From positions 2,356,001 to 2,420,000 of the forward strand of contig CANXME010002317.1 in NCBI GenBank assembly GCA_948144175.1: a stretch of DNA of 64,000 nucleotides, in the 5' to 3' direction. Positions 1,258-64,000 of the stretch are shown here, piece after piece (the first letter of the stretch is position 1; each line of letters starts with the position of its first letter). The notes below the pieces were generated by a model. That model saw only the letters and a list, made by a program, of their open reading frames with translations. It was not told where the DNA came from and ran no database searches. The DNA comes from Closterium sp. NIES-65. Its lineage: Eukaryota > Streptophyta > Zygnematophyceae > Desmidiales > Closteriaceae. The translations under genes and the position numbers were made by a program.

Positions 1258-1356
1258 CTTTTAGTCGTCGAGTTCGTCGTTCTACTGTAGAGCCTTGCCT
1301 TGTGCTTGATCTGCTCATATCCACCCACGTTAGCATGTCCTCCGTTGCTCTCACAT
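1258..1356 (-). repeat. Degenerate copy of the IMP3 last exon, beyond the stop
   Basis: On the minus strand this stretch matches the last coding exon of IMP3 ([10 protein letters not shown] for [10 protein letters not shown], then a diverged tail) but lies downstream of its stop codon. It is the most diverged of the exon copies in this locus. The rest of 875-1391 shows nothing else I can support. Confidence 0.6.
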
Positions 1357-1391
1357 CTACGGTACATGATATGTTACAAACAACATCTAAT

Positions 1392-4300
1392 CTAATTGAG
1401 TAAATCATAGTCGTCAACCTTATCGTTGTACTGTAGAACCTTGTGCTTGATCTTGCTCGTGTCCACCCATGTCAGCATGTCCTCCATTGCTCTTGTCACC
1501 AGAAACGCCGGGTCCCTCACAGCTTCCGGACCAATGCGCACATGGCCCTGGGGGGAGCATGAGGGAATGCGAGAAGGGGGGAGACGGGAATAATAAGGGA
1601 TCAGACACGTCAGCGTGTCCTCCATTGCTCTTGTCACCAGAAACGCCGGGTCCCTCTCGGCTTCTGGGCCGATGCGCACATGGCCCTGTGGGAAACATTA
1701 AGAGGGGACGCGAGAAAGGGGAGAAAGGAAAAAGGGGATCAGATCACCCACGTCAGCCTGTCCTCCATGCACCTGCACACATATTACCCACACCTACACA
1801 CATATTACCCACACCTACACACATATTACCCACACCTACACACATATTACCCAAACCTACACACATATTACCCACACCTACACACATATTACCCACACCT
1901 ACACACACCCACCCACCCACCTGCTGCACGAATGCCATGTGCTCTGCCATCTTCAGTCGCACCATCACCACTGCTAGCCTGCTGTGAGTCTGTGAACACA
2001 CCCCTTCACACACATAACCACGCCTAACACACCCACACCTGAACAGACCTGCTCAGCCACACCCAACCCCTCCCCACCTGCTGCACGAACGAAACTGCTT
2101 CTCTTATGTGTTCCGCGATCCTGATTTGCACCATCACCACTGCTAGCCTGCAGTGAGCACACCTAGGGACACCCAGACACACACCCACACACCTGCACAC
2201 CTGTAAACCTGCACACCTGTGCACCTGCACACCTGCACACCTGCACACCCCTGTACACCCCGGCATACCCTTGTAGACCCAGAGAAACACATCTTTCCCA
2301 CCTGTTGCACGAACGAAACTGCTTCTCTCATGTGTTCTGCCATCTTGAGTCGCACCATCACCACTGCTAGCCTTCGTCTGGAGGGAGATGAAACCAGGAA
2401 GAGATGAAACCAGGAAGAGATGAAACCAGGGAGAGATGAAACCCGGGAGAGATGAAACCAGGGAGAGATGAAACCAGGGAGACATGAAACCCGGGAGACA
2501 TGAAACCCGGGAGAGATGAAACCCGGGAGAGATGAAACCCGAGAGAGATGAAACCAGGGAGAGATGAAACCCAGGAGAGATGAAACCAGGGAGAGATGAA
2601 ACCAGGGAGAGATGAAACCAGGGAGAGATGAAAACAGGGAGAGATGAAACAACAGAAAGATAAAACCTTTTCTGAGACTCATTTGTGTGGGTCGGGAGCA
2701 AGGCCCTTGTTCTTGGGACAGAAAAAAACGCCGTGTGACATTATACCGAGCTGACTTTTGAGTCGACTCAGAAGTCAGCTTCTGAGGTTCATTTGTGCAG
2801 GTCGGGAGGAAGGTTCTTGTTCTTGAGACAGCACGAGTTATCAATAAATAGTTTCTTGATAGAGCTTGTGCCCACTTTCAATCTCATCAAATAAGCTCAA
2901 TAGCTTAAAAAAAAAAAACAAAAAAAAAGAGCAAAGAGTGGCTTACCTGCAAAACGAGGAGACGGAGAGCTTATCACAAAGGTTGAGGCTTTTCGTTGTG
3001 GGAATGACTCCCATGTTGTAGCTGTGTGGGGGGGAGGGAGATACGAGGGATTAAGGGACGGGTATGGTTTTTCTATGTGGGAATGACTCCCATGTTGTAA
3101 CTGGCGGGTTTCGGGGTGGGGGCAGAGGGAGGTCGGGTACGGAAAGGAGAGAAGAGGGGTTACAAAAAACTGTCTGCCCTTTCTGCGTGGGTATAGACTC
3201 CCATGTTGTCGTGGGGGGGGGGGGGAGGGGAGGAAAGTGAGGGGGAAGGGGTTAGGAGAGCAGCGGGAGTACATTAGGTGAACCGTGAAAGAATTGTGTC
3301 TGACTCTCCTGTGTCAGTCTCCCATGCTGCACCTGGTGTTGTGGGGGGGAAAAAGAAAGAGAGGAAAGATAATGACAGAACTGAAGGGAGAAAAAAGAGA
3401 GGGGCACTGTCTGGCTTGTCTGTGTGGGTATTTTTTTAGAGTTTTCGGGTTTTTTTTTTTATCTAAAGAAATCCCTGCAAAAATTGGGTATGACTGTCAG
3501 AGCTTGTGAAGCAGCTGGTCAGTCGTTTTGATCCGAAAGGGTTGGAGGGAAAGAAGAGAAGAAGTGGGGAAATAAGAGGAGTGAGAAAAATAGGAGAGCA
3601 GAGGAAGAAGGGAACGCGCTACCAAAGCTTGTTGAGCAGCTCGTCAGTCCTTTCGATGCGGAAGGGGTTGGAGGGAAAGAAGAGAAGTGGGAAAAAGGGA
3701 GGACAGAGGGGAAATGGCATGCACTAGCACTACTCACAGTTTGTTGAGCAGCTGGTCGGTCATTTCAATGCGGAATGCGTCGGAGGGATCCAGTTTCTTG
3801 AGCAGCGTTGCCAGCTTCGTGATTTTACCGCACAGCCGGTTGTACCTGCAGTCTCAATACAAGCACAGGCACACGCACGCACAATCACAATCACAAGCAC
3901 AAGCACAAGCACACGCACACGCACACGCAGACACACACAAGCACGGACATAGCATGAATTTCCCAGTTTCCTTGAGCAGGGTTGTCGACTTTGTGATCTT
4001 ACCGCATGCATAGCTGGTTGTACCTGCAGACTCGATACAAGCACAACCACAAGCACAACCACAGCACAAGCAGGAGAGCGCACAGGAACAGTAAAATGCT
4101 CTTTTGAACATTCTCAGCACATCACCCACTTTTGTTTTGTTACAGTAGAACCCTGCTTCGCAAGTATAAATGAACTTGGCTGTCCCCCATACCCTCTCAC
4201 TCCCATATCTGACTGACTCAAAACCTCTACGCGCGTAAATGTTTCCGCAAATCAACCCCACATCAACCCCAAGCTCCCCACCCTTCTTCTTCCCCCTAGC

Positions 4301-4653
4301 TTGCTCCCCCAAAACCCCAACCCGCCTCAAAACCCCGCCCCGCGAACTCCAACGTTTACCTATTTTACACACACCGGGCTTAACCCGATTGCGGAAACTT
4401 ACGAAACACAGCCTTTCTCCCATCCACACCATCCCCCATCCCCCAACAAACCCCCATCCCAAAGCTTCTCAGCCCCCCTTCCCGCGTCCTGTAACACAAC
4501 CTCTTGCTGGTAACCCTACTTGGAGTAATCGTCGCGTTCGGTGATGTGGTATCTTCGCATGACCTCCAGCTCTCTGTCGTTGTTCTCGGTCTTCCATTGC
4601 AGGAAATTCACCTTCCGCAGCAGCCGCTGCTCATGATACTTCAATTTCCTCAT
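1392..4653 (-). CDS. IMP3: U3 snoRNP protein IMP3
   Basis: Five exons (minus strand): 4653-4520, 3845-3738, 3021-2947, 2377-2302, 1547-1392, with GT-AG borders and matching phases, giving 182 residues against about 184 in human IMP3. IMP3 is part of the U3 snoRNP/small-subunit processome in the nucleolus and helps U3 pair with pre-18S rRNA. Exon 1 encodes the conserved start [18 protein letters not shown]; exons 2-3 the helical region up to [14 protein letters not shown]; exon 4 [17 protein letters not shown] and exon 5 [19 protein letters not shown] form the S4-type RNA-binding domain; the end [11 protein letters not shown] matches the family. All four introns carry partial copies of the flanking exons. 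The listed exons are the set that reads through in frame and matches the family best. Confidence 0.93.
1590..1690 (-). repeat. Near-identical copy of IMP3 exon 5 (5' part) in intron 4
   Basis: An acceptor CAG followed by codons for [20 protein letters not shown] and MEDTLT, then divergence. Compared with the working exon it has a few substitutions and loses similarity just after the MED-LT codons. Another short fragment of the same exon lies at about 1750-1772. Confidence 0.8.
1772..1915. repeat. About 20-bp minisatellite (CACCTACACACATATTACCC)
   Basis: Seven or so nearly perfect tandem units lie in IMP3 intron 4, ending in a CCCA-rich run. Noncoding. Confidence 0.95.
1917..2155 (-). repeat. 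Two copies of IMP3 exon 4 in intron 4
   Basis: Two minus-strand copies (about 1919-1987 and 2079-2153) repeat the exon encoding [15 protein letters not shown]. The first lacks the codons for REAVS; the second carries substitutions (VQIRIAEHI). Both keep a GTGGG-type donor. Confidence 0.85.
2164..2262. repeat. CACCTG-rich microsatellite
   Basis: Irregular tandem CACACCTG/CACCTGCACACCTG units in IMP3 intron 4. The open frames across it are low-complexity shadows. Confidence 0.9.
2384..2655. repeat. 16-bp minisatellite (GAGATGAAACCAGGGA)
   Basis: About 17 tandem units with variants (CCAGGGA, CCCGGGA, CCAGGAA) in IMP3 intron 3, directly next to the exon 4 acceptor. Translated, it gives artificial repeats of the PGFHLS kind, which are not a gene. 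Confidence 0.95.
2749..2780. repeat. 32-bp palindrome centred on GAGTCGACTC
   Basis: Arms AGCTGACTTTTGAG and CTCAGAAGTCAGCT (one mismatch) surround a TCGA centre. It lies in IMP3 intron 3 and is the first member of the GAG-NNNN-CTC palindrome family found across the window. Confidence 0.85.
3065..3335 (-). repeat. Three partial copies of IMP3 exon 3 in intron 2
   Basis: Three minus-strand fragments (about 3075-3102, 3185-3212, 3308-3335) repeat the start of exon 3 (codons for YNMGV or a near match), then diverge. They lie upstream of the working exon in transcript order, so they carry its 5' side. Confidence 0.75.
3497..3667 (-). repeat. Two partial copies of the 3' end of IMP3 exon 2
   Basis: Minus-strand copies at about 3497-3530 and 3621-3665 repeat the TDQLL codons and exon end. 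They lie downstream of the working exon 2 in transcript order, as expected for 3'-side copies. Confidence 0.75.
3856..3950. repeat. CA-rich microsatellite
   Basis: Irregular (CACAAG)n/(CACACG)n repeats in IMP3 intron 1, between exon 2 and its diverged copy. Confidence 0.9.
3955..4033 (-). repeat. Diverged copy of the 5' part of IMP3 exon 2
   Basis: A CTGCAG acceptor and the start of exon 2 (GTACAACC-type codons) are recognisable, but insertions and substitutions break the frame. It lies upstream of the working exon in transcript order. Confidence 0.75.
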
Positions 4654-5727
4654 AACGGCTAATGTCTAAAAGTGCTCGCGTTATAACGACACAAGCTCCG
4701 GCTCGTTATAACCTTGTGATTTTTCAAATGCTTCAGTGAAACCCTAGCTACGCTTAAAGCCGCTAATCAGGCCTAGCACTACGAATAACTACGCCTTGTA
4801 ACAACAAGGCGAAAGTCCTCAATGGGTTGGGGAAGCCGAAGGACGAAGGAGCGATTTAATGAACGCAACGTGAACTCGAAAAAATCAGAGACCCGTAGAC
4901 CTGGAGACAATCGCTAATCTTGGGCACGAGAACGCCAACACCGAGCAGCCTTGTCAGGGACAACTTCAAGGTGATATTTCTGTCTGGGCGTTCTGTACGG
5001 TCGAGTGCGGTGAGGTCGTGACAAAGGAATGTGAAAGTAGCGGGGGACAGATAACATGGCAGGGCGAAAAATCACAAAGTTGAAATGTAAGGGCGAGCAT
5101 GTAGTAAGCAGCCAATTCGATCCCTCATACAATCATTCAATAGCGAATCGCAATTTGGTCTTTGCAGCGAAATCTCGTTGACACTTCCGCAACCATTCGC
5201 TGCACCTCCCTCACCGCAATCCCGCTCGCGTGTCTCCTGCTTGCGGAAAAGCAGAGATGTCAGGCACGCCGCCGGCGGAACTGACAGAAACGGGAACAGC
5301 AGCCACTGCCTACGCAAGCCTTCGACTCGGATCAGCTGATTGATTTGAAACCGTCGATCTGTGTGCTTTGAACCAATCCCAAGGTGCACGAGCCACTGAA
5401 ACTGCATGCGATCAGACCGTTGCCTGCAGAACAGCACCAGAACGGACTTCCGTGAATCTGTCTCTGGTTTTTCGTCAAATATAGATCACACCAGAAGTCC
5501 GTCGATCCTACCACCGACTACAATCTGTAAAGGTTTTCGCTTTCCTACCAGACCCGAGACCACGAAGTACATAAGAAGGGACTCAGTGACCATCACCAAC
5601 AGCAGCACAGAAGCCCATCCTGAAGCAGGTTTTGCTATTCGTTCTTGTCTTTTGGTGAGCGGCCTTCTCATTAGTGGTATTTCACAGCAAGAACCATCTG
5701 AACTACTCGTTTAGAGCCGAGGTAGCC
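4654..5727. other. Intergenic region between divergent genes
   Basis: About 1.07 kb separates the IMP3 start (-) from the next gene (+). A minus frame at 5072-5437 is open but resembles nothing I know. A GT...AG pair near 5655-5690 could be a 5'-UTR intron of the downstream gene. Both promoters should lie here; I see no clear TATA box. Confidence 0.5.
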
Positions 5728-8758: not shown

Positions 8759-10308
8759 GGCGAATTGCGTTGTTATCCTGCCAACAGGCGCTTGTATTCC
8801 CCCTTGTTCTGAAATTTGCTTGCAAAGGATATCCTAACCGAGTTAGTCCAATATATTGGCAGCCGATTTGGCGCAAAATGTGTCTCACGTAGAAGTGCCT
8901 GGTCGTTGACTAAATAATTTGCTTCTCCAGACAATGGCGTCAATGCCAGGGTTGCAGGTGTTGAATACCGATTGCAGGTGTTGGTCCCATCATTTGCTTT
9001 GCAGTGAGTGCTCATCTCATGAACGGGGTGCCTACCCGCTGTTGAGTGCAGCAGTGGGGTGGTCCGGCCATGCTACATTTTCGCTTTTGGCTCTGAAATT
9101 TGAGCCCCGAGCCGCATGAAGGGCTGACAAGTTCTGCGCTTCGGAAGGCTTGGTTTTGCGCAGTCTGCGTGGAGGGGGAATTTGGATTTTGTCATTTGCT
9201 GCTGCTGCCTGCTGCGAAAAAGTGTCAGCAATAGCGAAGCGAGCAGCGAGAGATGATGGATGCTTGCCAAAGGAACGGCTACTCCGCGAGGCTCACGAAT
9301 TTTGTTTGGTTTTCCCTCGCATAGCACGAGAAAGTTAGCGGGCGCGTTACCACCTGATGACTGGGCGAGAAGTTCGATTTTGGGGTCTGGTGTATACTGA
9401 CTGTACGCGCTAAGATGCTCCATCTCCGTTTCGACTTTGCAGCGGAACACACCGCTTTGTCGGTCGGAAAGGAAATACAACCTTCATGAAACAATGTGCA
9501 GCACAAACCTTTGTCGCGCTGGCAAGACAGGCACGACCGGATGGACTTTCACTAGCTGTGTACAGAAACGAGATCGCCATGTTCTGCAGGTTCCGCGCAT
9601 TCGCGCGTCCCCCCTCCTGACCAACGGGGCATAATTTCGGGTGAATCAGGTGGATCCGGGCACACATCTAGACCGTCAGATGTTACATGTGGCTGTCAGA
9701 CCGTCGGATCATTTCCGATAACCCAGGCATAAAAACGTTCTCTCCGGCACGTCGAGCAGATCGGGAAACTCCGCCATTTTTCCGCCCACAGCGGCACTCG
9801 CTCCGCTCCCCGCAACTTCACCCTCCTTTCTGCGCCATCCTTCCCCTCAAACCGTCTTTCCACCTCCCCCACCAACTTCCGCTGCAGCAGCGGCGCTGTT
9901 CCGCAAGAGAATGGTCGAATGCACCAGCAACAGCAGGAGTTGGGAGGACCTGGACTGGTTGAGGGCATATCAACCAGAGAGAGCCAGACTAGGGTTTCAA
10001 TTTTGAGTTAGGAACGTCATTTTCTTAGTGTTGATTAGGTTTGTTAGGAAAAGGGCGAAGAGGCGTAAGGCGTTTTTCACGAGTTCTGGGCCTGACAGGC
10101 CCAAGCGTTGGCGAGTAAAGCTCTCACAGCTTGTTACCTACACCGTTTCAGGGCGATATGTATTGGTGTGCTTAGCTTCTACCTCCTCTTTATATATGAG
10201 GAGGATGGTATCTCGTGGGAAAATGAAGATGGCATAACAGTCATTTGTGGGGTGCTGGTGCTGTGTGCACGCAGCGTATTGTTGCAGCTGCTGGCAAGGC
10301 GTCTTACC
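8759..10308. other. Intergenic region between divergent genes
   Basis: About 1.5 kb between the root-cap-like gene (-) and the signal peptidase gene (+). A minus frame at 9073-9480 is open and not low-complexity (contains EMEHLSAYSQYTPDPKIELL) and could be an exon of an unrecognised gene, but I cannot fit splice partners to it. A GC-rich stretch at 9770-9960 is CT-rich on the plus strand. No other feature. Confidence 0.4.
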
Positions 10309-11904
10309 ATGGCTGCAATGGCCGGTTTTGCGGCTGGTTCTACGGGTCTCTCGTGTTGCATGCAGCGGTTGTCTGTGGGAGGGGTTTCGTTGTCGTCGGA
10401 AGGGGCTGGTGGTATCAATTCGTCGAAGTCGCGGAAATTTGCATTTTCTAACGCTCCGTGCCTCCAAGCTTTCGTGGCGAAATCTATTCGGGTTCACCTC
10501 TCCTGCCGTAAGGAGGGAGAGGTAGCCACGATGGGTCTTCGCGCGTCAGCCATGAGAAAAGGAGCACAAGGGAGTGCAAGTGTATCATACAGCAATGAAG
10601 GCGGAGTCAATGAAATAAATGGAATCAAGAATTCTGGCAGCAATTTCTGGGGTAACATCTGGCAGGCTAGGGCGTTTCTGTGCTCCTCGTTGAACGGAAA
10701 AGCCGCTTTGGAGTCCTGTGGGCCTGTTCGGGCTTCTGAGGCGGCTTCGCTGTCCAGCGAAGTGCGATATTACGACAGCCAGGTTACCAACAGCCTTGAC
10801 TTCGCAGGCTTGAAGGAGTCGGCGAAGAATTCGGTTGCCAGTCGGCAATTTATGTGGTTACCCGAGTGGCTTCCGCTGTCGGCGGAGGAGGCCAAAGCGG
10901 TGTTGGCGACGCTTGCGATGTCCCTGATCTTTCGCTTCGTCGCCGAACTGCGGTTCATTCCGTCGCTCTCCATGTACCCCACGCTTGACGTGGGGGACCG
11001 AATCGTCGCAGAAAAGGTAAGCCAACCTGTTTCGGTTTTTTTCAAACATATCGTGCAATTCGTGTTCACGAGTTAATTTATACAGCGATTAATCTGGCAT
11101 CGACTCCCCTTCCCCCATCAATGAGCAGGTTTCATACTATTTCAGGAAGCCTGAGGTCGACGATGTGGTCATCTTCAAGGCGCCCAAGGCCCTGAAGGTA
11201 GATAAGTTTTCCTCTCTGACTCCCCTAGTATTCTTCTCCCTCTTGACGATGTCTCATTGGTGCTCGCCGTCCCTGTTGCTCACTGTATCTGAAACTCGCA
11301 TTGTTACACTATTTTATGTGTGCCATGTGCGTTGTTGAAACGCGCAGAAGCATGGCTACAGTGAGGGAGAGGTGTTTGTGAAGCGAATTGTTGCCACTGA
11401 AGGAGACTTGGTGGAGGTGAGGGGGGGGCAGCTGTTCGTGAATGGCGTTGAGAAGGACGAGGATTACATATTGGAACAGCCTACCTACCACATGGAGACC
11501 CAGGTATTTCCGTCAACAGTTGCTGTTTGGGTTGTGTACAGGGTTTGCCTTGGGTGCCGGAATTGTCCATACCTGGTATCATTTGAAATTGTTCCGTTGT
11601 TTTGCTGCATGTTTCTTTACTCAACTTTTTTATCTCCTTGCCTGGTCTGATATGTGCAGTACATTCCATCTGGCCACGTCTTCGTCATGGGCGACAATCG
11701 CAACAACAGCTTCGATTCTCACACATGGTATGTGTTCGTACATTGGAATTGCTTTACACATGGTGTATCCTTGGCTCTGATAGCTGCAGCTTGCACTGGC
11801 CTTTGTGGTGATGGTAGCCTGACTTGAGCCTGGCACTGATGGTGTTTTGCAGGGGGCCTTTGGCTGTGAAAAACATTGTTGCTAGGTCTGTCTTTATTTA
11901 CTGA
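10309..11904 (+). CDS. PLSP1: Plastid type I signal peptidase (thylakoidal processing peptidase)
   Basis: Exons 10309-11016, 11129-11197, 11348-11503, 11660-11727, 11853-11904; 350 residues. Start chosen at ACCATGG; the frame is open upstream but lacks an ATG. Residues 1 to about 180 form a Ser/Ala-rich plastid transit region. A membrane segment ([17 protein letters not shown]) precedes the catalytic serine box [11 protein letters not shown] (S221), then [19 protein letters not shown], the lysine box [12 protein letters not shown] (K271), and [20 protein letters not shown]. The Ser-Lys dyad is intact. The enzyme cleaves lumen-targeting and envelope signal sequences in the plastid. The end is short: it stops at SVFIY where land-plant proteins continue with an RYWPP-type tail. 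Its introns contain none of the exon copies seen in neighbouring genes. Confidence 0.92.
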
Positions 11905-13650
11905 ATGGATTGTTTGATGGAATGGGATGGGTGGAAATGGTAGTTGAATATATATTGTAAATATCTGCATTTGTCGGTAGCATTGATTCACCGGCCAGCA
12001 CCAAGAATTTTGTTTAATTGATCCCACATGTGGCTTCGGTAGGTAGTGTTTGTTGATCCCTTTTTCATACAGAGGAGGAGCTTTTCTTCAGTTGCACAGC
12101 AGGACGATCATACGAGGAGCACTAGCGATAATGACAAATGTAGTACGGTAGTATATGGTGGTTACTACCGTATTGTGTTCTCACCTTAAGGAGTGGTGCA
12201 AAAGCTGTGCTAGTATGTGTACTAACGAATCATGCTGGTTGTGGTCGGCCTCGCTTATGCCTCATCCTGTTCTGGTGGCCACGTCATTCCACTTTTTTCG
12301 TGGCCAAACGACAGTTCGGGTGGGGCAATCCCTTCGACCGAGGAGAAAGCTGACACTGCAGCGCCGCCAATTGGTCCTTACACCTCGAGCTTCGCGACTC
12401 AGTTGTTGGGGTCGTTCTATTGGGCCACGTGAATCTTCGCGACCTCTCTTCAGAGAGTCGTATGCGGCGCCAGCTGGGCCCGTGCGACCAGTGATCAGAA
12501 ACTCGCTTGCGTGTCGTGCCGCGTCATCGAGTCGTCCTCCCGCAGAACCCCCAAGGGCAACGTGCGACTGGTGGATCCATTTCCCAAGGTCTTCGCTTGC
12601 CCCAAATCATCTGTATCGCTATCCTCGGTTTGGGATAGCGACGCTATCCTCTTTGTCGCTCACCTCGATTTCCCCGCACCTCCACGTCGCACGGATCGCT
12701 CCAAGTTCGCAGCATCACTCACCTTGCGACCCGATATTTCAGGGCGGGTCCAGCGCGTACGTTTACAGGTCCTTTACAGTTCATTCGTAGTGGTTTGAAA
12801 AGATATCAAGCGGTGCACAATGGTTTTGAATTTGCACCGTTTTGAACCGTGACGCAAGACAGATTATCGCACTGGATGAACTGTATTCTACGGAAAACGT
12901 ACGCGCTGGACCCGCCCTCAGGGCAGTTCTCTCGCTGACACCCATCCAGCCCAAGGGTCCACTCCACTCCACTGATGAAAGTGGTTTCACGGGATTCAAG
13001 TTTGTTTTTCCAATAAACGGTTGTTTAGCTTAATGAGTGGTTGGGTAGGGTCTTGCAAGATGTCCAGTTCCGTCATCAACCCAATTCATCAACTCACTCT
13101 CATACCTTCCTGTCAACCCCAAGGTCCTACAAAATCTCTCCCAAGCTTCTTCAAACTTCTCTTTTGCAGAGTCTGGTATACTCCTACAGGTTCTCCACTT
13201 TCCTCTTGGGATTCGTAGGAAGTGCCTTGCCTGCTTCACCTCGTAGCGCGTAAGGCGTCGAAAGCAGCGTCCAGTGATTTCGACAGAAGCAGCACAGCCA
13301 TTCTCACGGCAGACGCTTCTCCTCGTACCTACTAAGCCTCCAGTTTCCACTGAGTCTTTCCAGTTTCGACCTTAGCATTTGACTGGGTGCAAGTGCTAAC
13401 TTATATGGGCAAGCGAGGGTCTGTCTATAACTAGGCAATCACAGAACGTGGTTCGTGGGGGTGGCTCGCATCTCGAAGCTTCATCCTCGATACAAGTTCG
13501 CTGGAGGTGGCTGCGGGAAGTTGTGGTTGAGTCTGTGTGCCTGCTGACGTCCATTGTGCCGCTAGTCGTCTGCTCTACTGACGTCATTCTCACTGAGTTC
13601 ACGCCGACAGCTGCATTCGCCATTTGGGAGGGAAACGCGAGATTCCCAGC
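11905..13650. other. Intergenic region, includes a foldback element
   Basis: Between the signal peptidase and IF-2 genes. Open frames at 12155-12790 (+) and 13030-13350 (-) lack supporting features; the latter has no ATG. A foldback element occupies 12741-12918. The IF-2 promoter and 5' UTR should lie in the last few hundred bases. Confidence 0.5.
12741..12918. mobile_element. 178-bp foldback/MITE-like element
   Basis: Terminal arms of 24 bp (12741-12764 and 12895-12918, starting AGGGCGGGTCCAGCGCGTAC) are perfect inverted repeats. After a 10-11 base unmatched step, a second pair (ACAGTTCAT and its complement) continues the stem. No coding capacity. I see no clear target-site duplication. Confidence 0.65.
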
Positions 13651-41906: not shown

Positions 41907-41954
41907 ATCATGGGTGGGGGGGGTGAGGAAGAGGAGTCCGATCTCGACGCGCCT

Positions 41955-49321: not shown

Positions 49322-49431
49322 TTTCCCCCGGCCGGTCAAATCCGTTTCAGGGTGACAGCACTGAAGTATACTGATTCCTCAGTGTAACTCGTTCAGAAAC
49401 ACACAAAACCGTCAGTGTGGCAAACTCACAT

Positions 49432-49872: not shown

Positions 49873-50907
49873 TCTCTGAGACATGGGCAGCGGGGGCCTC
49901 CGGTTGCGTACGAGTGCCTCTGTGTGTTGCGCCGATGACACCGCATGCGTCGAATCTTGTAGGGTACGGGAGGCTTCGATGAGGGGCTCGACGTATGGCG
50001 TAACATACATTTCCTTTGCTGTGTCGCTTCGCCATCTGCCCAGCCGTTTGAAGACTCTGTCTGGCACTCCCGTGTTGGCTGCTACTGTGGCTGCACCTTT
50101 TCGGAAAGAATGGGTGCCTAGCTGCAACTCTCCAAGGCCAACCTTTGCGAAGGCTTCCTTGCACCAGTTCCGGATCGTAGTGTATGAAGGTGGCCTAGCC
50201 TGGCCCTCGCTGGTTGAACCGTGACCGAAGACACGAATCAATGGTCCCTCTGACCGTGGGCCATAGCCAGCGAGTCGGATGAAGCGTCGGGTGCAGCGCA
50301 CTGGGCAGCAGGGGTCCGCCGTTGCTGCAATGGGTATCCAAGTGCCGTGACCAGCTTGATCGGTCTTGGAGTGTGGTATGAGAATCCACATGACCTCGTC
50401 GTCGAATTGGATGTCTTGCCATTTTATGGCTACTAGGTCAGAGTATCGCAGGAATCCGGAGTACATGAGGATGGGTATCAACCCTTTCTGAAATTGCGCA
50501 GGATCGTCGGACTGCAAGTAGCTCGCGGCCATTTCCTGGACTTGTTGGATCGAGACGGGTTCCTTCAGACGAGTAGGGCGTGGGCAGTGTCGCTTTGCAT
50601 AGTCACGGACTTGGGTGGTGAACGGTCCGGTTGTCGGGCATTTGCTCCCGGTCATGCGATGGGCGAAGCTGACCGCCGAGCAGGTTAGCTGCACTACGGA
50701 CAGGGTGGCTTTGCGTCGGATTGCGTGTACCAGGTATAGCGCGAGGGTCATGTCGGATGCCGGGAGGAATGGAAGGTTCACTTTTGTGCAGAAGGCTCGA
50801 AACTTGGCCCAGTATGGTTCATATGTCCGGATCGTAGAATCGGCGCGGGACTGCGCGAGCATGTTGATCAGTTGGTCGTGTAACTTTGGGAGCAAATCTG
50901 AACACAA
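49861..50907 (-). CDS. Tyrosine recombinase of the DIRS/PAT element
   Basis: 348 codons. Shows the phage-integrase-type fold with SGFLRYSDLVAIKW (first Arg region), a late HSFRKGAATVAA box and an LGRWRSD segment near the end, as in DIRS-element recombinases. In this family the enzyme integrates the cDNA in place of a DDE integrase. Confidence 0.9.
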   Translation of the reverse strand: MCSDLLPKLHDQLINMLAQSRADSTIRTYEPYWAKFRAFCTKVNLPFLPASDMTLALYLVHAIRRKATLSVVQLTCSAVSFAHRMTGSKCPTTGPFTTQVRDYAKRHCPRPTRLKEPVSIQQVQEMAASYLQSDDPAQFQKGLIPILMYSGFLRYSDLVAIKWQDIQFDDEVMWILIPHSKTDQAGHGTWIPIAATADPCCPVRCTRRFIRLAGYGPRSEGPLIRVFGHGSTSEGQARPPSYTTIRNWCKEAFAKVGLGELQLGTHSFRKGAATVAANTGVPDRVFKRLGRWRSDTAKEMYVTPYVEPLIEASRTLQDSTHAVSSAQHTEALVRNRRPPLPMSQRPHL

Positions 50908-50924
50908 GGTGTATATATTTTGAG

Positions 50925-53030: not shown

Positions 53031-53087
53031 CGAATGTGTCGGGAATATTAACGCATGTCAACGCATGTCTCTTCTTCTCCTCGTTTC

Positions 53088-53090
<3 letters not shown>

Positions 53091-53120
<30 letters not shown>
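53091..53120. repeat. 30-base poly-T tract
   Basis: Uninterrupted T run in the spacer between the gag-like and reverse transcriptase frames of the DIRS/PAT element. Confidence 0.97.
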
Positions 53121-53122
<2 letters not shown>

Positions 53123-53492
53123 CCCGTCGTCCACTTGGTAGGACATGGTTGTGCCTGCCCTTAGTGCGTAGGGGCTGATGCCTAGGGCCATGGACACCGT
53201 TGTCCATTGTGCTTTCTCTCATTCTCTCTTTGCCAAAACCATAGGCCTTTAGGAAGGTAGTTTTTATTAAATCAACCAACACACATAGCAATGCTTTCCT
53301 AGCATGCCACCAAGTGGCCAACATATGGGACCGAGGGGTTGTTGTTCCCCTTCCCTATCCTAGGCCCAAGCCTATCCCACCCTTTACTAGGGCTGGCCTC
53401 TTGCCATCGCAAACCCCTAGGGTTGCCCACGGTTTTCGCACTCAAGAGTGCACCGTGCCTAGCGCCCAAGCGCCTAGTCTCATGGCCCGCTC

Positions 53493-54703
53493 CTACACCA
53501 CCGGAGCGGGTCCCTGGCCTCCATGCCCGTTCCGAGGGCAGGCACTTGCCACGTGGCCCGGCTGGCCGCAGCGGAAGCATGAGCCCCGGAACCCACGGCA
53601 ATTGGCCGTGGGCGGGGGGCCTCGCTTGGGTAAGAACGGCATCGGCCCGTTGTTTCCGCCGCGGTTGACACGAGCGTATCCGCTTGCCGCACGGTCCATC
53701 GCTGCCATGTCCGCGACCGCCTGCTTGAAGGGTCGAGAAGTCAGCAGGCTCTTCTGCTGGTACAGCTTAAAGCGCTTCGCCGTGCGAAAGTCGGAGGCGT
53801 CCTCCACTTGAAGCACCTCGAAACGCCCCGCGATGAGGTTGAGAGCGTGTGAGATGAGTTCGAGTCCGCCCGCCGGATCACCGCGCTGCGCCTTGTATTC
53901 GGCGTGCAGCAGGTACGCCCGCAGGTCCTCCAGTAGCTCCGCTTGCTCTCGCACGGAGTCGTTGACGAAGGTTGCCGCCGAGAAGGTAAGATTAGAAGAA
54001 GGGAGGGGGGGAAGGTTTTCCGTGCCAATAAAATTAACATTGTCGACTGGAGCCTCACCGGCTTCATCTTCAGAGTCGTCGGTGTCGTTGTCGACCGCTG
54101 GAGCAGGGGGAGCGGCAGTCGCTGCGTCGTTGTCATGCCGGTTCGTCCGTGCTCCCCGTGTGCCTTTCTCCTTTTTTGCAGTTTCTTTTTTAGCCGACGC
54201 AGATGCGGCGGGTAGTGCAGTTTCCGCGGCTGTAACGCTGACGGGTTGCTGCTGTAGAAGGGACAGCAGCGCGTTGACCTGGTCCGGGGTCAACGCCTGC
54301 GTCAGCGCAGGGGCGGCGGTCGCGTCAGACGAGGAGACTGCAGTCCGCCTCCTCTGACGCTGACGCGACGGTCCAGCAGCGGGTGCTGGCGTGTGCTCGG
54401 CGTCAGTCGCGTGTGCCGCGCCAGTCCCCGTCGCCACTTGCGCCACAGGTGCCACTGGCGCCACAGGCGCCACTGGCGCCACAGGCGCCACTGGCGCCAC
54501 AGGGACCGAAGGGTGCTGCTGGGTTTCGGCGTTTTTGTGGACCTCGAGCCCGCCCAGCAGCACGTCCACTGCAGTCGGGGCGGAAGGTCCGTCTTCTGCC
54601 CGACGCTTGTTACGGCGTTCGCCCGCAGAATCGCGGGCGTTACGGTCGGAGTCGGAAGCGGGGGTTGACGAGTTCCCGTTGTTAAGTGTCGGCGTAGGTG
54701 CCA
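53493..54703 (-). CDS. Gag-like protein of the DIRS/PAT element
   Basis: The likely start is ATG at 54703 (ACGATGGC); the frame is open further upstream to 54962. The protein has an Ala/Pro-rich N-terminal half with a VAPVAP repeat, a helical middle part, and a CCHC zinc knuckle near the end (CFRCGQPGHVASAC). Confidence 0.85.
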
Positions 54704-54814
54704 TCGTTGAGCGATTGAAGTTGAAAATGTCGCTGAGTAAAGTAGAGGGTGACTCGCCTCTAGGAAGCGATTTAATCATAGCCAGCTTGGAGGGAAAAAC
54801 TACTCGAGCGGAAA

Positions 54815-55000
54815 ATGTTGAGTGAGCCGTTTGAAAATTGAGAAACGTGGGTGGAGGGAAATGAGCTCCAACCCACGGTTTTTGTAGTTGGAGAAGGGCG
54901 TTTAGCGCGCTTCGACGATGCCAATTGTGCAGTACAAGCAGCTTCGCTTTCACAATACACAATTTTAAAAAACACTACATGTGTGTTTAAAAATTATAAT
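54815..55000 (-). repeat. DIRS/PAT left-hand repeat A1
   Basis: 186 bases nearly identical to A2 at 49629-49815, in the same orientation, ending ...AAAAATTATAAT at the element boundary. Confidence 0.92.
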
Positions 55001-56328: not shown

Positions 56329-58269
56329 TGCTAGTCGTCCAGTATCTACTATGTTAGCCTACTAAACCCGTGCTTTCTCTCCGAAATTCTGCCTTTTTTC
56401 ATGGGCCACAGCGCATTCCTGAACGCTCTCACTGATCCAATTCTTCGCTCTTCTTCATAAGTTCACTATGCTGGTTGGATCCTCGACTAAGTCTGAGTAG
56501 CTATTCTGGAGCGCGAAAAAATACCGGAAAGAGGGATCAACAAGAACCAGAGGGAAACGATTGATAGAAGTTACCACCTTTAGGTTACCAGCCGATTACA
56601 TAGATTCAGCTGCTGTGCTGCAAGGATATACAGTTCGCCTAAACTCGTCCCCGCATTTCGCTTACCAGATTCTGCATGCTCGCGACGATCAAGATTTCGC
56701 TAGATGCAGTGTGCTTCGTGGCTCGCAACGCAATCAACTTTGCGTGGTTTGTCTTGCACAAGAAGACGGAACGCGCCGCCGTCGACATTTGTGATGTGTT
56801 TGTCATGGAGCGGCTGCGATTTCGCGAGTTCCTTCCTTACTTGAAACAGATTATGGAGTTTGCGATGAAATGCGACAAGTTTGCGCTTCGCTGTGGTAAC
56901 CGGATGTCGTAGTATCGGTGACGAGACGCAACATTCGTGCGGTTTCCGATTGCAATGCGTGGCTGACGGCTGCCAGTTGCGTGCTGACGCTTCCACGTCA
57001 AGTATGTAACGTGGCCTCGTTCGGTATCGCTGACCCCGTTGCAGTGCGTCGCATCACTGCATATGAACAAAGATATTTGTGCTGTCAGCGTGCCATATCC
57101 TAATTTATATGAAACAAGTCGATTAATCAATCGTCTGTAGTGATGAATCATATTATATAGGCGAAATGATCTTTCTTGAAATAAGATAAATATATATATG
57201 ATTATTTGATTACACAGCACGATACATCGTTCAACGTAGAATCAGCCGTGTTTACATGTCTCACCTTTTCACTGTTAGATTTCACTCATGCCTGCAACGA
57301 AAGATTTCTGCTCTTTACAGTCACACGAGGTCGTGGCTAGCTCCATGCCTTTTTTGGTTCGTTCCCTCGCGGGGAAGGGTACCCGCCATACCAAATGTAT
57401 TCCCCAACCATGGACAAGCCAAATCACCGCGGCGCGACTGTGATAACCAGGCCAAAGTGCCACGTATGCTGGCCTGGGCATGAGTGGTTCGGGACAGGAT
57501 ACAGAACGCCCGTCTGGACCAGCCCACCCCAGCCACATCACATCACCACGTGCTTCTCGGAATTGCCGCGCCGCCCGGGATGGAAGCCCTCCTCACGAGT
57601 GCTGCATGGCATTTCACCAGGGTCCTCCCACACCACCACACCAAACCGCATGGACAAACTCGAGGCAAATGTGCGGCTCGAGATTGCTACATCCAAGGCG
57701 TTCATCATCCAGCTGCTGTTTTGCAGCCATCGATCCCCAGGCTAACCAGTCTCAAAGCCCCCATACCGTCTCAGTCATCATCACCCTCCAAAAACCACAA
57801 CCGAACCCATTCCCTTTTCTCCCCTCCTTGTTAGCGCTGAGACGCACTACTTCACATCACCCACACACTGCTTTTCAGCCTGTCAGTCAAGTTTCTGCTT
57901 CCGCCCGCTGCGAAACACCGAATTTTGCGGTCGACCAATGCTGGCTCCGTTTTCTTCGCCCTGCCGCCTGAGTCTTAGACCGCAGCTCGCGTGGTTTTTG
58001 TCGCCCTGCTGCTTGTGTCTTTGACCTCAGCGAGCGTGGCGGCAAGTGCCGCAGCTAGTTTGCTTTGAAGTATCTCAGACTCTCAGACCGGAGGTTACCT
58101 GTTTCGTTGCGAGCCTGTCTCTAGGGGAAGCTGTCCTCGTCGAGGTTGAATTAGCACCCTGCTTTCCGAGATTCTGTTGTCCTGTTTTCGTAATTGCAAA
58201 GAGAAAGGTTTTTTAATCGGAGTCATTTTCCAGAGTACTCTCCCAGCTTACTCAGAAAAGTCGCTGAAA
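56329..58269. other. Intergenic region between divergent genes
   Basis: About 1.9 kb between fasciclin gene 2 (-) and the kinase gene (+). A 116-codon frame at 57395-57745 starts with ATG (MYSPTMDKPNHRGATVITRP) and ends SHRSPG; it is not low-complexity but resembles nothing I know. AT-rich stretches at 57110-57220. No repeats of the exon-copy kind. Confidence 0.4.
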
Positions 58270-59787
58270 ATGGTGAGCTACGTCGATGGGCCAGAGCATT
58301 CGCCTTCCGTCGGCGGGCGACTCATAGGCGGTCGCTACCTTCGCCTGCGAAAGATCGGAACCGGGTCGCAAGGCGACGTATGGGAGTGTGAGGACATTCG
58401 CACGTCGCACCGCGTCGCATGCAAGTCCTTCTCCCCGTCCACGCGACGAACCAAATCCTCCGTGGCCGTCCTCGATATATACGCGGAGATGCGCGCGTTA
58501 CAAACCCTCGGCGGGCACCCGAACGTCGTACGCCTTATAGACTTCTTCGTCGATGCGACAGAAGTCCATATCATAATGGAACTTGTACAGGGCGGGGATT
58601 TGTGCACAGAAATCTGCGAGAACGGGCCGCTGCCGGAGCCGCTGGCTGCTACAGTGCTGCGTCAGCTCGCATCCGCTGTCGCTTTCTGCCACGCCAACGG
58701 CGTCGTGCATCGCGATATCAAGCCGGAGAACGTGCTGTTGGTGCGGCCGGTGCAGGAGAAACCAGAAGATTGGGAAAGTGAAGGGCTGGATAATTGTCAC
58801 CAGCAACAGAAGCTCCAGCCGCAGCAGCTTCTGGATTCGTGCCCGTTACCTCTCAGTTTTATCACACCAGAGGCGAGAGAAAATGCGCTGCTACGAAAAG
58901 GGGGCCTTCGTGGCGAGCAGGAAAAGAGTGCGATCATGGAGATGGCTTTGAGGAACAGGACGAATATCGCAGCACTCTTATCGAGTACGGACCTGGTAAC
59001 GGGGCAGACCTGCGCCGATATCAGCCCGAACGTCGTTCCGCAGAATCTGTCACCGCTTCCTGACCTCCAGTCACCGCCTCCTCATTCCCCCGCAGCTACT
59101 CCCAAATCAAGCCCGGTTCGGCCGTCCGTGTTTTCGCGCTTCGGGAGGCTAAAGATCCAGCAGGCCTTGGCGCATCGGCTAGGCCACGTGGGCGCGGGGC
59201 GGGGGATTGTCGGAGTGAAGCTGGCGGATTTCGCGCTGTCGACGACCGTGGATGGAGGGATGTCGGGGCAGAAGCACGGGCGGGGAGCGGGCACGCGCAT
59301 GTACATGGCTCCTGAAATGAAGCAGCGCGGTTCGGGACGGGGCTCAGGAGAGGGGAGAGGTGGAGAGGGAGGAGGTGGAGGGAGGAGAAGTGGCGTGACG
59401 GATGGTGCGCATAAGGATGTAACGAGAGGTGGAGAAGGGGAAATAGGAGGAGGAAAAGAACATTTTCGGTATTATGGGTGTAAGGCCGATGTTTGGAGCT
59501 TAGGAGTGACGCTGTGCGTGATTCTAACGGGGCTCATTCCGGTTTTCGACCAATCAGGCTGCTTGGATCTAGGCGACCCAGTCTGGAGAAGGGTTTCGTG
59601 GGCGGCGAAGGATCTCGTCCGTAAGATGCTCCAGGTGGACCCGAATCAACGGCTGAGCTCGTTCGAGGTTCTGGAGCACCCGTGGCTGAATCAGAGGGCG
59701 GTTCGGATGAGAGACATTGCCACCCGGTGCCCGAACCTACTCTCCCCGCTGCTTCCTGCCCCTGCTGTAAAGTCGCTGCGGGCTTGA
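58270..59787 (+). CDS. Ser/Thr protein kinase, CAMK-like, with large insert and DFA motif
   Basis: Intron-free, 505 residues from ATG at 58270 (AAAATGG). Kinase motifs in order: GTGSQGDV (30-37), VACK (K52), E73 in helix C, HRDIKPEN (148-154), ADFALST (DFA at 320-322), GTRMYMAPEM (341-350), ADVWSLGVTLCVILTGLIPV, and a C-terminal lobe ending RLSSFEVLEHPWL. About 160 residues are inserted between the catalytic loop and DFA, and a Gly/Arg-rich insert of about 45 follows the APE motif. The HRD and DFx aspartates and K52 are present, so it may be active. The lobe pattern fits the CAMK/SnRK/CDPK group, but there are no EF hands. Target unknown. The coding end is repeated downstream of the stop. Confidence 0.85.
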   Translation: MVSYVDGPEHSPSVGGRLIGGRYLRLRKIGTGSQGDVWECEDIRTSHRVACKSFSPSTRRTKSSVAVLDIYAEMRALQTLGGHPNVVRLIDFFVDATEVHIIMELVQGGDLCTEICENGPLPEPLAATVLRQLASAVAFCHANGVVHRDIKPENVLLVRPVQEKPEDWESEGLDNCHQQQKLQPQQLLDSCPLPLSFITPEARENALLRKGGLRGEQEKSAIMEMALRNRTNIAALLSSTDLVTGQTCADISPNVVPQNLSPLPDLQSPPPHSPAATPKSSPVRPSVFSRFGRLKIQQALAHRLGHVGAGRGIVGVKLADFALSTTVDGGMSGQKHGRGAGTRMYMAPEMKQRGSGRGSGEGRGGEGGGGGRRSGVTDGAHKDVTRGGEGEIGGGKEHFRYYGCKADVWSLGVTLCVILTGLIPVFDQSGCLDLGDPVWRRVSWAAKDLVRKMLQVDPNQRLSSFEVLEHPWLNQRAVRMRDIATRCPNLLSPLLPAPAVKSLRA

Positions 59788-60410: not shown

Positions 60411-61202
60411 GACACATACTTTTATGGATGGCCCTTATACTCTTATACTTCCTCTCCCTTATACTCTTTGTCTCTTCTCTGCCCTTCGGACTACGCCTCC
60501 TTCACCCTTCACTTGCTTTCCGAAATTCACCCTTCACCTGATTTTCGCCGGTCACCATTCACCTGCTCTCTGCCGTTCACCCTCGACCTCCTCTCCCCTT
60601 TTGGCACCACATACCCATACCAGTTACCTCCCTTTTCCCCTCTATTGCTGCTTCTGCACTGCTGCTCCAATAAGGAAGGTGGCTTCCACAAGCTTTTGCA
60701 TAAGTTTTGAGGTCGGGGTTTATACGGAGAATGGTTGGCCTGACCAGAGATTTTAATACGGGCTGATCAGGTTGTGAGAAGTTGTTGGGAAGGAAATAAA
60801 GGGGTTGTTGAATAAGCTATGGGGCGTAGCAGCACTTGATGTCACTATACTATTCACACTGTCAATGTGATCAATACATGTACATGCAAGCTTTATTGCT
60901 TTTCATCCTGATAATTTGAACTTATATTGCAAACCAAACAAAAATTCCTTACATGTCATTTCACTTAAGATTCATGGCACATAGGACGCGTAACATGATT
61001 ATTGGCAAGTTTTAGGTTGTAGCGAAACCATGCTAACTTGCGGTAATATAATTTGCATCAGGGCAGTTCATTCTTCCACGTAATTGATCGTTCACCACAT
61101 GTTTGCACCGCCTGATAGGGCCGCGTGACAGGAAGGTATCGTTAGCGTTCCTTTCGGCTTCACGCGTATAGCAGCGTTCACGTGACACAGGTGACCGAAG
61201 CT
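60411..61202. other. Intergenic region
   Basis: Kinase 3' flank and promoter side of the next gene. CT-rich at 60440-60650, AT-rich at 60840-61050. A TACTTTTATGGATGGCCCTT segment is duplicated (about 60276 and 60417). No gene seen. Confidence 0.5.
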
Positions 61203-64000
61203 ATGGCGATCGCGTTACAATTAGCTGCCGTGACTTCGAACGTCCCAGGAAGCCTAAATCGCGGCTCACTGCAATCGCTGCGGCCCGCACAGGTACGTAC
61301 AGGGTAGAAGGTAGGAAGCTACGTCGCAGGACGTCGCAGGAAGGTCCGGCTTGGGAGACTACGACGCAACATGAATCACACAACGATTAGGCTGTCACGA
61401 AATCGTTTCAAGAATTATGAGACGCGGGCTTTAAAATCTATGACATTCCGAAATCGTTTGTGGCTCCTAATTACGTGACATTACCCACTGTTTTCTTTAA
61501 CTTGCCGTTCAGGCATCTCGCTTGGCGATTCCACTCCGTCGGCGTCAAATTCAAGTGACAGCGTCCCAGGACCAGCAGCGGCAAGGTATGCAAGTTAACA
61601 GAGTTGAACAGATGATTGAGTAGCAGTAGCAGAGTCAGAATCAGAAGCAGAAGCAGAAGCAGCAGCAGAAGCAGAAGCAGAAACAGAAGGTGGACAGCTT
61701 TCTTTTTTCCCCACCCTCAACCCCCCTTATCCATCACTCCCCACCAAAATCAACTGGTGATGAGCGCAGCAAAATGGTGCTTCACGCTATCTCCTCCATT
61801 TACCTCAGCCACCCTCCCCTCCTCCCCTCCTCGACTCTCCTCTCTCCCCCCTTAACTCTCTCCCCTCTTTGGCTGCCCCCTCCATTCTTCTTCCCAGCAC
61901 AACCAACCATCCCGGTGATGAGCGCAGCAAGGAGGTGCTTGAGGCCTTCTTTCCCCTCCATTCACCTCTGTCCCCGCCACCCTCCTCGCCCCACCTCCCC
62001 TCCCTCACCCCCTCCATTCTTCTTTCCAGCACAACCAACCATCCGGTGATGAGTGAAGCAAGGAGGTGCTTGAGGCCTTCTTTCCCCTCCATTCACCTCT
62101 GTCCACACTCCCATTCACCCCCCCACCCACCCCCTTTCCATCACTCCCCAGCACAACCATCCATCCGGTGATGAGCTGAGTGCAGCAAGGTGGTGCTGGA
62201 AGATTCCTACCCTGCTGCACTCATAAGATTTCTGCCCCATAAACTCTTCCCCTTCCCCTACCGCCTCCCCCACCCGCCCCTATCCATCGCTCCCCAGGAA
62301 GTGATGAGCGCAGCAAAGTGGTTTTGAGAATTCTCAAAAACACTCTGCAGCATCAGGAAGTGATGAGCGCAGCAAGGTGGTGCTGAAAGATTTCTACCTT
62401 GCTGCACTCAGCTCCATATACTCTTCCCCTACCCCTACCGCCTCCCCCCAACCGCCCTCAATCCATCACTCCCCAGGAAGTGACGAGCGCAGCAAAGTGG
62501 TGCTGAAAGATTCCTACCTTGCTGCACTCAGCTCCATATACTCTTCCCCTTCCCCTACCGCCTCCCCCCACCCGCCCCTATCCATCGCTCCCCGGGACGG
62601 GATGAGCGCAGCAAAGTGGTGCTTGACGCTCTCTCCTCCATATAGTCCCCCATCCCCCTTTCCCGCCTCCCCCTCAACCCCCCACGCCCGCCCACCTGTA
62701 TTTATCTCCCCCCAGGAAGTGATGAGCGCAGCAAAGAGGTGCTGGAAGATTTCTGCCCCATGAACTCTTCCCCTTTCCCTACCGCCTCCCCCTACCCACC
62801 CTCTATCTATCCATCTCCCCCCAGGAAGTGATGAACGCAGCAAATAGGTGCTGGAAGATTTCTCCTCCATATCCCCCCCTTCCCCCCCTTCTTCCTCACC
62901 CCCTTCTCCCCCCTCTCCCTCACGCGCTTTCCCCCCCACTCCCTCACCCCCGCCGCCTCCCCCTCAACCCTCAACCCCCACCCGCCCCTGTCCATCACTC
63001 CCCAGCAAGTGATGAGCGCAGCAAAGAGGTTCTGGACGCCTTCTTTTCTCGGCAAGGCCGTAGCAGAGGTGTTTTTCCTCCCCTCTACCCCTCCCCCCTC
63101 GTACATCACTCCCCAGGAAGTGATGAGCGCAGCAAGGAGGTTCTGGACGCCTTCTTTCTCGGCAAGGCCGTAGCAGAGGTGGTATCAGAGCGGTTGGGGT
63201 CGGCTGTGGGAGAGATTCTGAGTGAGGTGGGGAGGCGGCAGGCGGAGCAGCAGCAGCAACTGAAACAGTTTCAGGTGAGCTGGTGTGTCTAGAGCAAGTG
63301 AATCCAGAGGTGGTATTGGTTTTTGTATGAGCAGGTGGGGTCGGCTGTGGGAGAGATTTTGAGTGAGGTGGGGAGGCGGCAGGCGGAGCAGCAGCAGCAG
63401 CAACCGAAACAGTTCCAGGTGAGCCGGTGTGTCTCGAGCAAGTCAATCAGAGGAAGCATTGGTTGGTAGGAGTGAGATTCAGAAGTGGGAAGGTGCCAGG
63501 CGGAGCAGCAGCAGCAGCAGCAACCGAAACAGTTCCAGGTGAGCCGATGTGTCTCGAGCAAGTCAATCAGAGGAGGCATTGGTTGGTAGGAGTGAGATTC
63601 GGAAGTGGGGAGATGGCAGGCGGAGCAGCAGCAGCAGCAACTGAAACAGTTTCAGGTGAGCCGATGTGTCTCGAGCAAGTCAATCAGAGGAGGCATTGGT
63701 TGGTAGGAGTGAGATTCAGAAGTGGGGAGATGGCAGGCGGAGCAGCAGCAGCAACCGAAACAGTTCCAGGTGAGCCGATGTGTCTCGACCAAGTCAATCA
63801 GAGGAGGCAATGGTTGGTAGGAGTGAGCAACTGAAACAGTTTCAGGTGAGCCGATGTGTCTCGAGCAAGTCAATCAGAGGAGGCATTGGTTGGTAGGAGT
63901 GAGATTCAGAAGTGGGGAGATGGCAGGCGGAGCAGCAGCAGCAACCGAAACAGTTCCAGGTGAGCCGATGTGTCTCGACCAAGTCAATCAGAGGAGGCAA
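61203..64000 (+). CDS. Plastid-targeted protein like cyanobacterial thylakoid-associated proteins (partial, DUF6825-like)
   Basis: Exons 61203-61292, 61513-61585 and 63117-63274 (phases 0 and 1, then 0); the gene continues past the window. Exon 1 starts CTATGGCG and encodes MAIALQLAAVTSNVPGSLNR, a Ser/Leu/Arg-rich transit-type start; exon 2 continues basic (RLAIPLRRRQIQVTAS). Exon 3 encodes DAFFLGKAVAEVVSERLGSA, VGEILSEVGRRQAEQQQQL and KQFQ. The FFLGKAVAE...LSE-GxxxAEQxxxLxxF pattern resembles a small cyanobacterial thylakoid-associated family and its plant plastid relatives; I recall this as DUF6825 but cannot verify it. Many copies of the exon 3 start precede it and copies of its end follow. 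Confidence 0.6.
61617..61690. repeat. AGCAGA microsatellite
   Basis: (AGCAGA)n/(AGCAGC)n tract at the start of intron 2 of the plastid protein gene. Confidence 0.95.
61745..63060 (+). repeat. About eleven copies of the 5' part of exon 3 in intron 2
   Basis: The segment GTGATGAGCGCAGCAA plus A/GG-GGTGCT (codons SDERSK(E/V)VL) recurs at about 61757, 61915, 62047, 62168, 62302, 62357, 62479, 62600, 62719, 62827 and 63009, before the working exon at 63117. Most have an AG acceptor. Spacing 55-180 bp with a CT-rich filler. Confidence 0.95.
62322..62339. repeat. 18-bp perfect palindrome TTTTGAGAATTCTCAAAA
   Basis: Perfect palindrome with EcoRI-like centre between two copies of the SDERSK segment; the left copy breaks off at AGCAAAGTGG. 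Confidence 0.97.
63325..64000 (+). repeat. Copies of the 3' part of exon 3 up to the window edge
   Basis: The segment GSAVGEILSEVGRRQAEQQQ to QFQ and GTGAG donor recurs fully at 63339-63418, then as shorter GEMAGGAAAA-frame variants (AGCAGCAGCAGCAA-CTGAAACAGTT) at about 63500, 63620, 63740, 63828 and 63930. A 120-150 bp unit with GTGTCTCGAGCAAGTCAATC filler is tandemly repeated. Confidence 0.93.

Follow-up and report, generated by a model that had tools for sequence, protein, structure and literature searches.

Short head-to-tail duplications of DNA have reportedly been obtained from engineered nicks in a 2016 PNAS study, which is not known to describe a natural build-up of such copies in introns. 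In potato RdRp a tandem duplication across an exon-intron boundary, interpreted in the accessible part of that report with the model of Rogers (1989), created a new intron in one event (PMC4974935). Repair-mediated proximal duplications, described in vertebrates by Pace et al. (2009), have a median length of 147 bp and sometimes include partial exons or splice sites; as far as the accessible text of that study goes, pairs less than 50 bp apart were excluded as tandem, and the 824 probable human cases comprise few exon pieces (PMC2671141). For the Closterium psl complex, Kawaguchi et al. (2023) found most genes in near-identical pairs and reported whole-gene copy number, and the accessible passages of their article on introns, exons and tandem repeats make no mention of exon pieces in introns (PMC10407611); the same is true of exon-edge copies in the accessible part of a Zygnema genome preprint. 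Here we describe a stretch of 64,000 nucleotides from Closterium sp. NIES-65 (contig CANXME010002317.1, positions 2,356,001 to 2,420,000; hereafter the window), part of an assembly of 874,075,685 bp in 2400 contigs, in which copies of exon edges make up most of the non-coding stretches in many of the genes examined, a real and very strong pattern. As in potato RdRp, the 3' side of an intron and the 5' side of the next exon are duplicated head to tail with their splice signals; unlike the single event described there, which produced a new intron, many events seem here to have taken place on both sides of most exons examined, probably lengthening existing introns and apparently leaving the exon set unchanged (PMC4974935, accessible part). 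The original prediction, which called the process undescribed, thus has to be divided: tandem duplication over exon boundaries is a known kind of event, while no report of exon-edge copies filling introns on this scale was found in the open-licence literature.

A blastn search (E<=1e-3) of the listed exons, extended by 40 nt of flank, against their own genes gave 148 partial exon copies around six window genes once the exon edges were corrected: 72 in the gene for plastid IF-2, 28 in a fasciclin gene, 22 in a DUF6825 gene, 12 in an SDR gene, 10 in IMP3 and 4 behind a kinase, with none in the signal peptidase gene. No match overlapped its own exon, at least five of the counted copies fall just beyond the window, and an IF-2 exon at about 16.2-16.46 kb, whose 5' edge is lacking in the model, stands outside the count. 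Copies extending to the expected exon edge number 118 of 148, the other 30 being internal; the 5' edge is reached by 47 of the upstream copies, with 19 others internal, and the 3' edge by 71 of the downstream copies, with 11 others internal. Under a strict rule (2-3 nt) none of the 148 reaches the wrong edge, which bears out the predicted polarity of 5' parts upstream and 3' parts downstream; the claim that introns are filled with pieces of the adjoining exon is confirmed as well. A first pass, in which four exon edges were 1 to 78 nt off and DUF6825 was not included, gave 125 copies of similar arrangement: of the upstream ones 39 extended to the 5' edge and 16 were internal, and of the downstream ones 60 extended to the 3' edge and 10 were internal. 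It likewise left out the IF-2 exon at 16.2-16.46 kb. Copies of last exons lie beyond the stop, as had been proposed, in four of the five modelled last exons. Local direct repeats make up 32.6% of the window, with 73-91% per 2-kb bin at 16-30 kb and 0% in the bins at 6-14 kb, while three shuffles of the window in 10-base blocks yielded none. When the window was compared with itself, 348 of the 364 repeat rows were direct, and 333 of these 348 join sequences less than 2 kb apart. In the window comparison nearly all self-matches lie between neighbours and the copies resemble their own exon, a pattern that does not fit introner-like or other transposed elements.

Exon-edge copying is not local to the window but is present in genes on at least six contigs. 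Seven further genes of the same genome (aconitase, Mic60-like, RhoGAP, one unnamed and three chaperonins) carry 64 copies, none of them at the wrong edge, so that together with the window 0 of 212 copies violate the strict rule. The aconitase/IRP1-like gene and a gene which we take to be Mic60-like, both on the window's contig, the RhoGAP gene (contig C1721) and the unnamed gene (C2144) account for 38 copies, 37 at the expected edge and one internal; these four came from repeat-rich pieces (L018, L019, L025 and L026) and therefore demonstrate recurrence rather than frequency. One further segment of L019 with nearby downstream copies, and four distant low-complexity matches, are outside this count. 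The three chaperonin genes, located on other contigs, were picked by family and are thus nearly unbiased, apart from one (C43) which already had overlapping matches; part of each gene was analysed with the ends of Pfam matches as exon edges, and copies are present at nine of ten exon segments (26 copies, none at the wrong segment end). A diverged IF-2 paralog at C741:3653352-3659520 (also on C1886), with protein matches 49-87% identical, has partial copies of its own, and of the 20 kept, after 9 of 29 matches were dropped as low-complexity codons or as lying more than 4 kb away, 18 show the usual polarity. Copies of this kind explain the overlapping partial matches obtained in exon-level searches of this genome. 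Among 14 random 10-kb pieces, eight were scanned by codon usage and two of these were followed to genes; piece L029 includes a repeat-free open frame some 290 codons long.

The arrangement is likely to be the outcome of repeated head-to-tail duplication within genes of this genome. Segments some 80-290 bp long, with a median step of 147 bp, would have been duplicated over and over. Wherever one breakpoint lay in an exon and the other in the adjoining intron or 3' sequence, the exon would be left intact next to a partial copy, the latter upstream if the segment held the acceptor and downstream if it held the donor or the stop. In a duplicated stretch running from an exon into the next intron, the first copy would complete the exon and the second would remain downstream as its 3' part with a donor; in a stretch running from an intron into an exon, the first copy would remain upstream as the 5' part with an acceptor and the second would complete the exon. 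The polarity is consistent because one breakpoint in an exon and one in an intron dictate the side, and, as it is automatic from this geometry, it is no evidence of a special mechanism and does not require selection. Pieces adding a second exon with both splice sites, or repeating exon-internal DNA, would be rare and were probably removed by selection. The arrays may later have expanded and contracted, most simply via unequal exchange, and the copies would decay as dead DNA, presumably under neutrality. The primary event may be a step in repair or replication, and the nick-induced duplications mentioned above, which are likewise short and head to tail, are a candidate source.

The geometry of the copies is consistent with this reading. 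Exon and nearest copy are a median step of 147 bp apart (quartiles 132 and 176, extremes 79 and 288), and the step falls at 100-180 bp in 36 of 49 exon sides, of which 15 are from outside the window; nearest repeat pairs in general, exonic or not, are commonest at 120-160 bp (33 of 86 in the window, and the same in 12 other 10-kb pieces). About 147 bp is the length of nucleosomal DNA, and both this match and that to the median of the repair duplications are leads only. Under head-to-tail duplication the spacer beside an exon is the intron part of the duplicated unit and should look like the flank of the copy; of the 34 nearest comparisons, 22 show such a likeness above the 95% level obtained from 60 shuffles, often over part of the spacer. 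Among the exon sides where nearest and farthest copies differ in similarity, the nearest is the more similar in 19 of 22; this is a trend only and not a strict age gradient by distance. Repeats within exons amount to one marginal 15-nt match among 24 exons (blastn, where steps under about 30 nt may escape), and the strict rule finds no whole-exon copy on the 49 sides against 4.6 expected (P 0.004).

A number of observations nevertheless weigh against repeated head-to-tail duplication. The whole-exon test is weak because four near-whole copies in the window and two whole copies in the IF-2 paralog temper it: with a tolerance of 5 nt, 4 of the 148 copies are near-whole exons (IMP3 exon 4 twice, downstream; IF-2 exons 24917-24982 and 27179-27253 once each, upstream), none with both splice sites, and 2 of the 20 kept paralog copies span the whole modelled exon. 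In-frame arrays of 15-bp units are found inside the first IF-2 exon and the kinase. The spacers in 12 of the 34 nearest comparisons have no significant likeness to the copy's flank, even though two of the exon parts concerned are 94% and 100% identical; some such copies may be local insertions, or their flanks may have turned over. Uniform random duplication would not predict that repeats cover 2.2% of the 30.1 kb outside modelled genes (mobile elements and unmodelled genes included) and 0% of the signal peptidase introns. Finally, a simple dead copy predicts a mismatch to its exon about twice as high in the flank and at third codon positions as at positions 1 and 2 together, but with one copy per side (34 sides) the ratios are 2.5 for the flank (95% range 1.6-3.7) and 4.0 for third positions (3.1-5.3), and the silent excess is strongest in window IF-2 (4.5, 3.7 and 24.3% at positions 1, 2 and 3).

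The spacers unlike their copy's flank speak for dispersed local templated insertion, in which double-strand-break repair would have copied nearby DNA in place of head-to-tail duplication. A 65-bp exon piece, 100% identical and without a donor, that lies 40 bp into fasciclin intron 1 has the appearance of such an insertion, and the median length of vertebrate repair duplications agrees with the step seen here (PMC2671141, accessible part). However, inserted pieces would be expected on either side of an exon and on either strand, while the wrong edge was reached by none of 212 copies and 348 of 364 self-match rows are direct; moreover, Tandem Repeats Finder lists 89 rows of tandem arrays in the window, many with units of 110-190 bp. 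As the general explanation, templated insertion is accordingly improbable.

The original prediction had left open a choice between local tandem duplication and an assembly artefact, in which the chaining of reads or haplotypes would have repeated pieces of exons. The assembly does hold many regions twice (10 of 11 distinguishable chaperonin genes are on at least two contigs), a circumstance in favour of such chaining, and the window itself has a near-identical duplicate in contig C1863. This contig, however, carries the same arrays, with 97.6-99.9% identity in the main blocks and 118 base differences in 55,830 aligned bases, and its array differences are mostly unit multiples. The length differences in two IF-2 arrays are 276 bp (2x138) and 896 bp (7x128), although beside the latter C1863 has one extra 109-bp copy, so that the net difference there is no whole number of units; around exon 21297-21359 the window has 3 upstream and 11 downstream copies and C1863 has 1 and 5. 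In C1863, moreover, IMP3 exon 4 is joined to its copy by one 224-bp unit more than in the window, and one more 52-bp tandem unit lies beside the first IF-2 exon. The arrays therefore change in copy number on a recent time scale. Individual decay and frame shifts in the partial copies, together with PacBio reads of Closterium NIES-65 whose N50 of 30 kb exceeds the 17-kb IF-2 gene, also argue against an artefact, which we regard as very improbable, and of the two original options it is tandem duplication that stands.

The window and C1863 differ in larger segments as well. A stretch of about 5.6 kb (49401-54999) in the window is missing from C1863 and contains a reverse transcriptase/RNase H frame (Pfam) together with a frame which we take to be recombinase-like; it is probably a recent mobile-element insertion. 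Conversely, C1863 has a 5,520-bp insertion at 9451-9477 that is missing from the window, and 326 bp at 32946-33300, not a tandem copy in the alignment, are present in the window only.

The copies retain their splice letters. The donor GT is mismatched at 2 of 96 letters in 48 downstream copies and the acceptor AG at 3 of 80 in 41 upstream copies, together 5 of 176 (3 of 141 in an earlier count for which some edges were misplaced), and these decoy sites are therefore not being destroyed. As upstream copies have an acceptor only and downstream copies a donor only, splicing by exon definition would ignore both, and to judge from the sequence many intact splice signals in the affected genes are probably unused. 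If an acceptor and a donor are used only when they bracket the same exon, unpaired sites being skipped, the normal protein would be kept, the duplication tolerated and the intron lengthened.

Outside the splice sites the copies show decay. In the four genes outside the window taken from repeat-rich pieces, mismatch amounts to 6.9% of first, 6.9% of second and 15.0% of third codon positions and to 11.9% of the flank, as would be expected of a dead copy next to an exon under constraint: first and second positions would then reflect decay in a single lineage, and flank and silent positions in about two. In the 125 first-pass window copies the values are 6.1, 4.9 and 24.1%, with 11.2% in the flank, and 32 gaps shift the frame while 7 are in frame. 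The codon-position signal is inflated when near-identical array members are counted repeatedly, and with one copy per side it is smaller but persists. The 189-bp array at 18707-19729 is not explained by plain decay, since 19-21 of 42 third positions in its five full copies mismatch the exon, against 1-3 of the 84 other codon positions. When the paralog serves as outgroup, the distinct changes at IF-2 third positions map to the copy in 58 cases, to the exon in 40 and to neither in 36; changes are thus found on both sides, and neither exon hypermutation nor copy-only change fits. Fast exon evolution alone was rejected on the same outgroup comparison. Exon hypermutation was also rejected on the comparison of the window with C1863, where third positions differ at 6 of 2549 sites and genic non-coding positions at 31 of 21067, indicating, at low power, no several-fold excess at present. 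In every class mismatch ranks CpG above other G/C above A/T, and third positions are richer in CpG (a rough control, as context was taken from either sequence), so that CpG and G/C context accounts for the silent excess only in part. A diverged functional homologue might also have replaced IF-2 exons, which would be a further source. The few mismatches at positions 1 and 2 in window IF-2, with more than 40% at position 3 in some copies, might suggest that protein-level selection acts on the partial copies as functional alternative half-exons, but this is scarcely credible given that 32 of 39 gaps break the frame, that frame-shifted copies have nearly the same pattern as the rest, that each copy is without one splice site, that the four other genes give the dead-copy ratio and that IF-2 third-position changes are split between copy, exon and neither.

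Head-to-tail duplication thus remains the preferred reading, and the distribution of the copies among and within genes adds a further aspect to it. Local repeats cover 81% of the IF-2 introns, 72% of those of the fasciclin gene, 71% of those of SDR, 86% of the DUF6825 stretch, 62% of the stretch behind the kinase and 35% for IMP3, and modelled first exons have upstream copies in 0 of 5 cases against 15 of 18 for other exons (P 0.002; the starts are modelled and are not mapped transcript starts). Duplication may be coupled to the transcribed unit; alternatively, 5' ends may be intolerant of it and copies may be lost outside genes. In a more tentative version, which we consider rather doubtful as it stands, a process tied to transcribed genes would repeatedly copy about one nucleosome length head to tail, exons acting as permanent sources and introns as their accumulated exhaust, with strict exon definition ignoring the many intact unpaired splice sites; it draws on the contrast in repeat cover (35-86% against 2.2%), on the asymmetry between first and last exons and on the low mismatch of decoy sites.

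These genes offer a visible source of intron sequence, as exon edges have been copied outward and the copies, a few percent diverged, can be assigned to their sources. They also constitute a natural experiment on splicing, because many intact unpaired acceptors and donors lie beside real exons in the genes examined. In addition, the copies may record past states of the exons and serve as an internal neutral clock.

The largest array system is that of the IF-2 gene (plus strand), modelled by spliced alignment to E. coli IF-2 in 12 blocks, one block boundary being probably false. The first modelled coding exon (13648-15243) has its last ~100 nt and donor repeated four times downstream (15288-15829) and not at all upstream. 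The exon ending with GHVDHGK at 16461, recognised from the alignment and reading frames within 16006-16637, has repeats of its 5' part ahead of it and a 3'-part copy with donor at 16533-16637, the usual polarity in a reading by eye. Three upstream 5'-part copies, each with an acceptor (16645-17075), precede the exon encoding the GTPase core (17133-17483), which the aligner divides, yet the frame 17082-17495 is fully open; this exon is followed by 14 downstream 3'-part copies at 17514-19736, 11 of them with a donor, including the 189-bp array. Exon 20405-20503 has four upstream copies and one downstream. A 138-bp array of 3.4 units, 100% alike (20876-21348), has exon 21297-21359 in its last unit, and the 11 downstream 3'-part copies of that exon, with donor, form the 128-bp array (21438-22824). 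The remaining exons (23233-23388, 24917-24982, 25846-26106, 27179-27253, 27474-27674, 28788-28976 and 29745-29927) all have partial copies. In one IF-2 intron, positions 26429-26593 consist of 34-bp repeats with inverted symmetry (4.9 units, 99% alike), a 26-bp piece of which is seen again at 29261-29286, itself similar to 2747-2780.

IMP3, on the minus strand at 1248-4656 including its copies, was modelled on human IMP3 with five exons (4656-4520, 3845-3738, 3021-2947, 2377-2302 and 1547-1392). A 16-bp array of 16.6 units, GAGATGAAACCAGGGA, adjoins its exon 4 at 2381-2667 and shows small unit shifts between the window and C1863. The SDR gene (plus strand), aligned to structure 3h7a, has exons 34380-35118, 36736-36860 and 37432-37842, with eight upstream copies at exon 2 and none at exon 3. 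Of the two fasciclin genes originally proposed, one was found (PF02469), whereas IMP3, IF-2, SDR and the plastid-protein (DUF6825) gene show copies as claimed. This fasciclin gene (plus strand, 38739-42603 with its copies; exons 38739-38954, 40053-40241 and 41643-41906) has five of its copies beyond the stop. A 26-bp array at 39588-39845 (9.9 units, 98% alike) has an 88% match to positions 40-65 of fasciclin exon 2, a short exon piece amplified separately.

The kinase frame (plus strand, 58150-59787) is followed, as proposed, by four copies of its 3' end past the stop, reaching 60272. The DUF6825 gene, identified by a domain match in the plus-strand stretch 61721-64000, has at exon 63117-63274 ten upstream copies and, downstream, six within the window and five beyond (21 over the longer region). 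The signal peptidase gene (plus strand, 10096-11901), with five exons and introns of 112-156 bp, and the two-exon gene at 5728 are free of copies as had been noted, no direct repeat starting between 4073 and 12740. As the fasciclin alignment reference was stitched wholly, and that of the signal peptidase mostly, from the window itself, these two models are less independent. On the minus strand, the frames at 45673-48682 have almost no local repeats and resemble what we take to be a DNA-transposon transposase.

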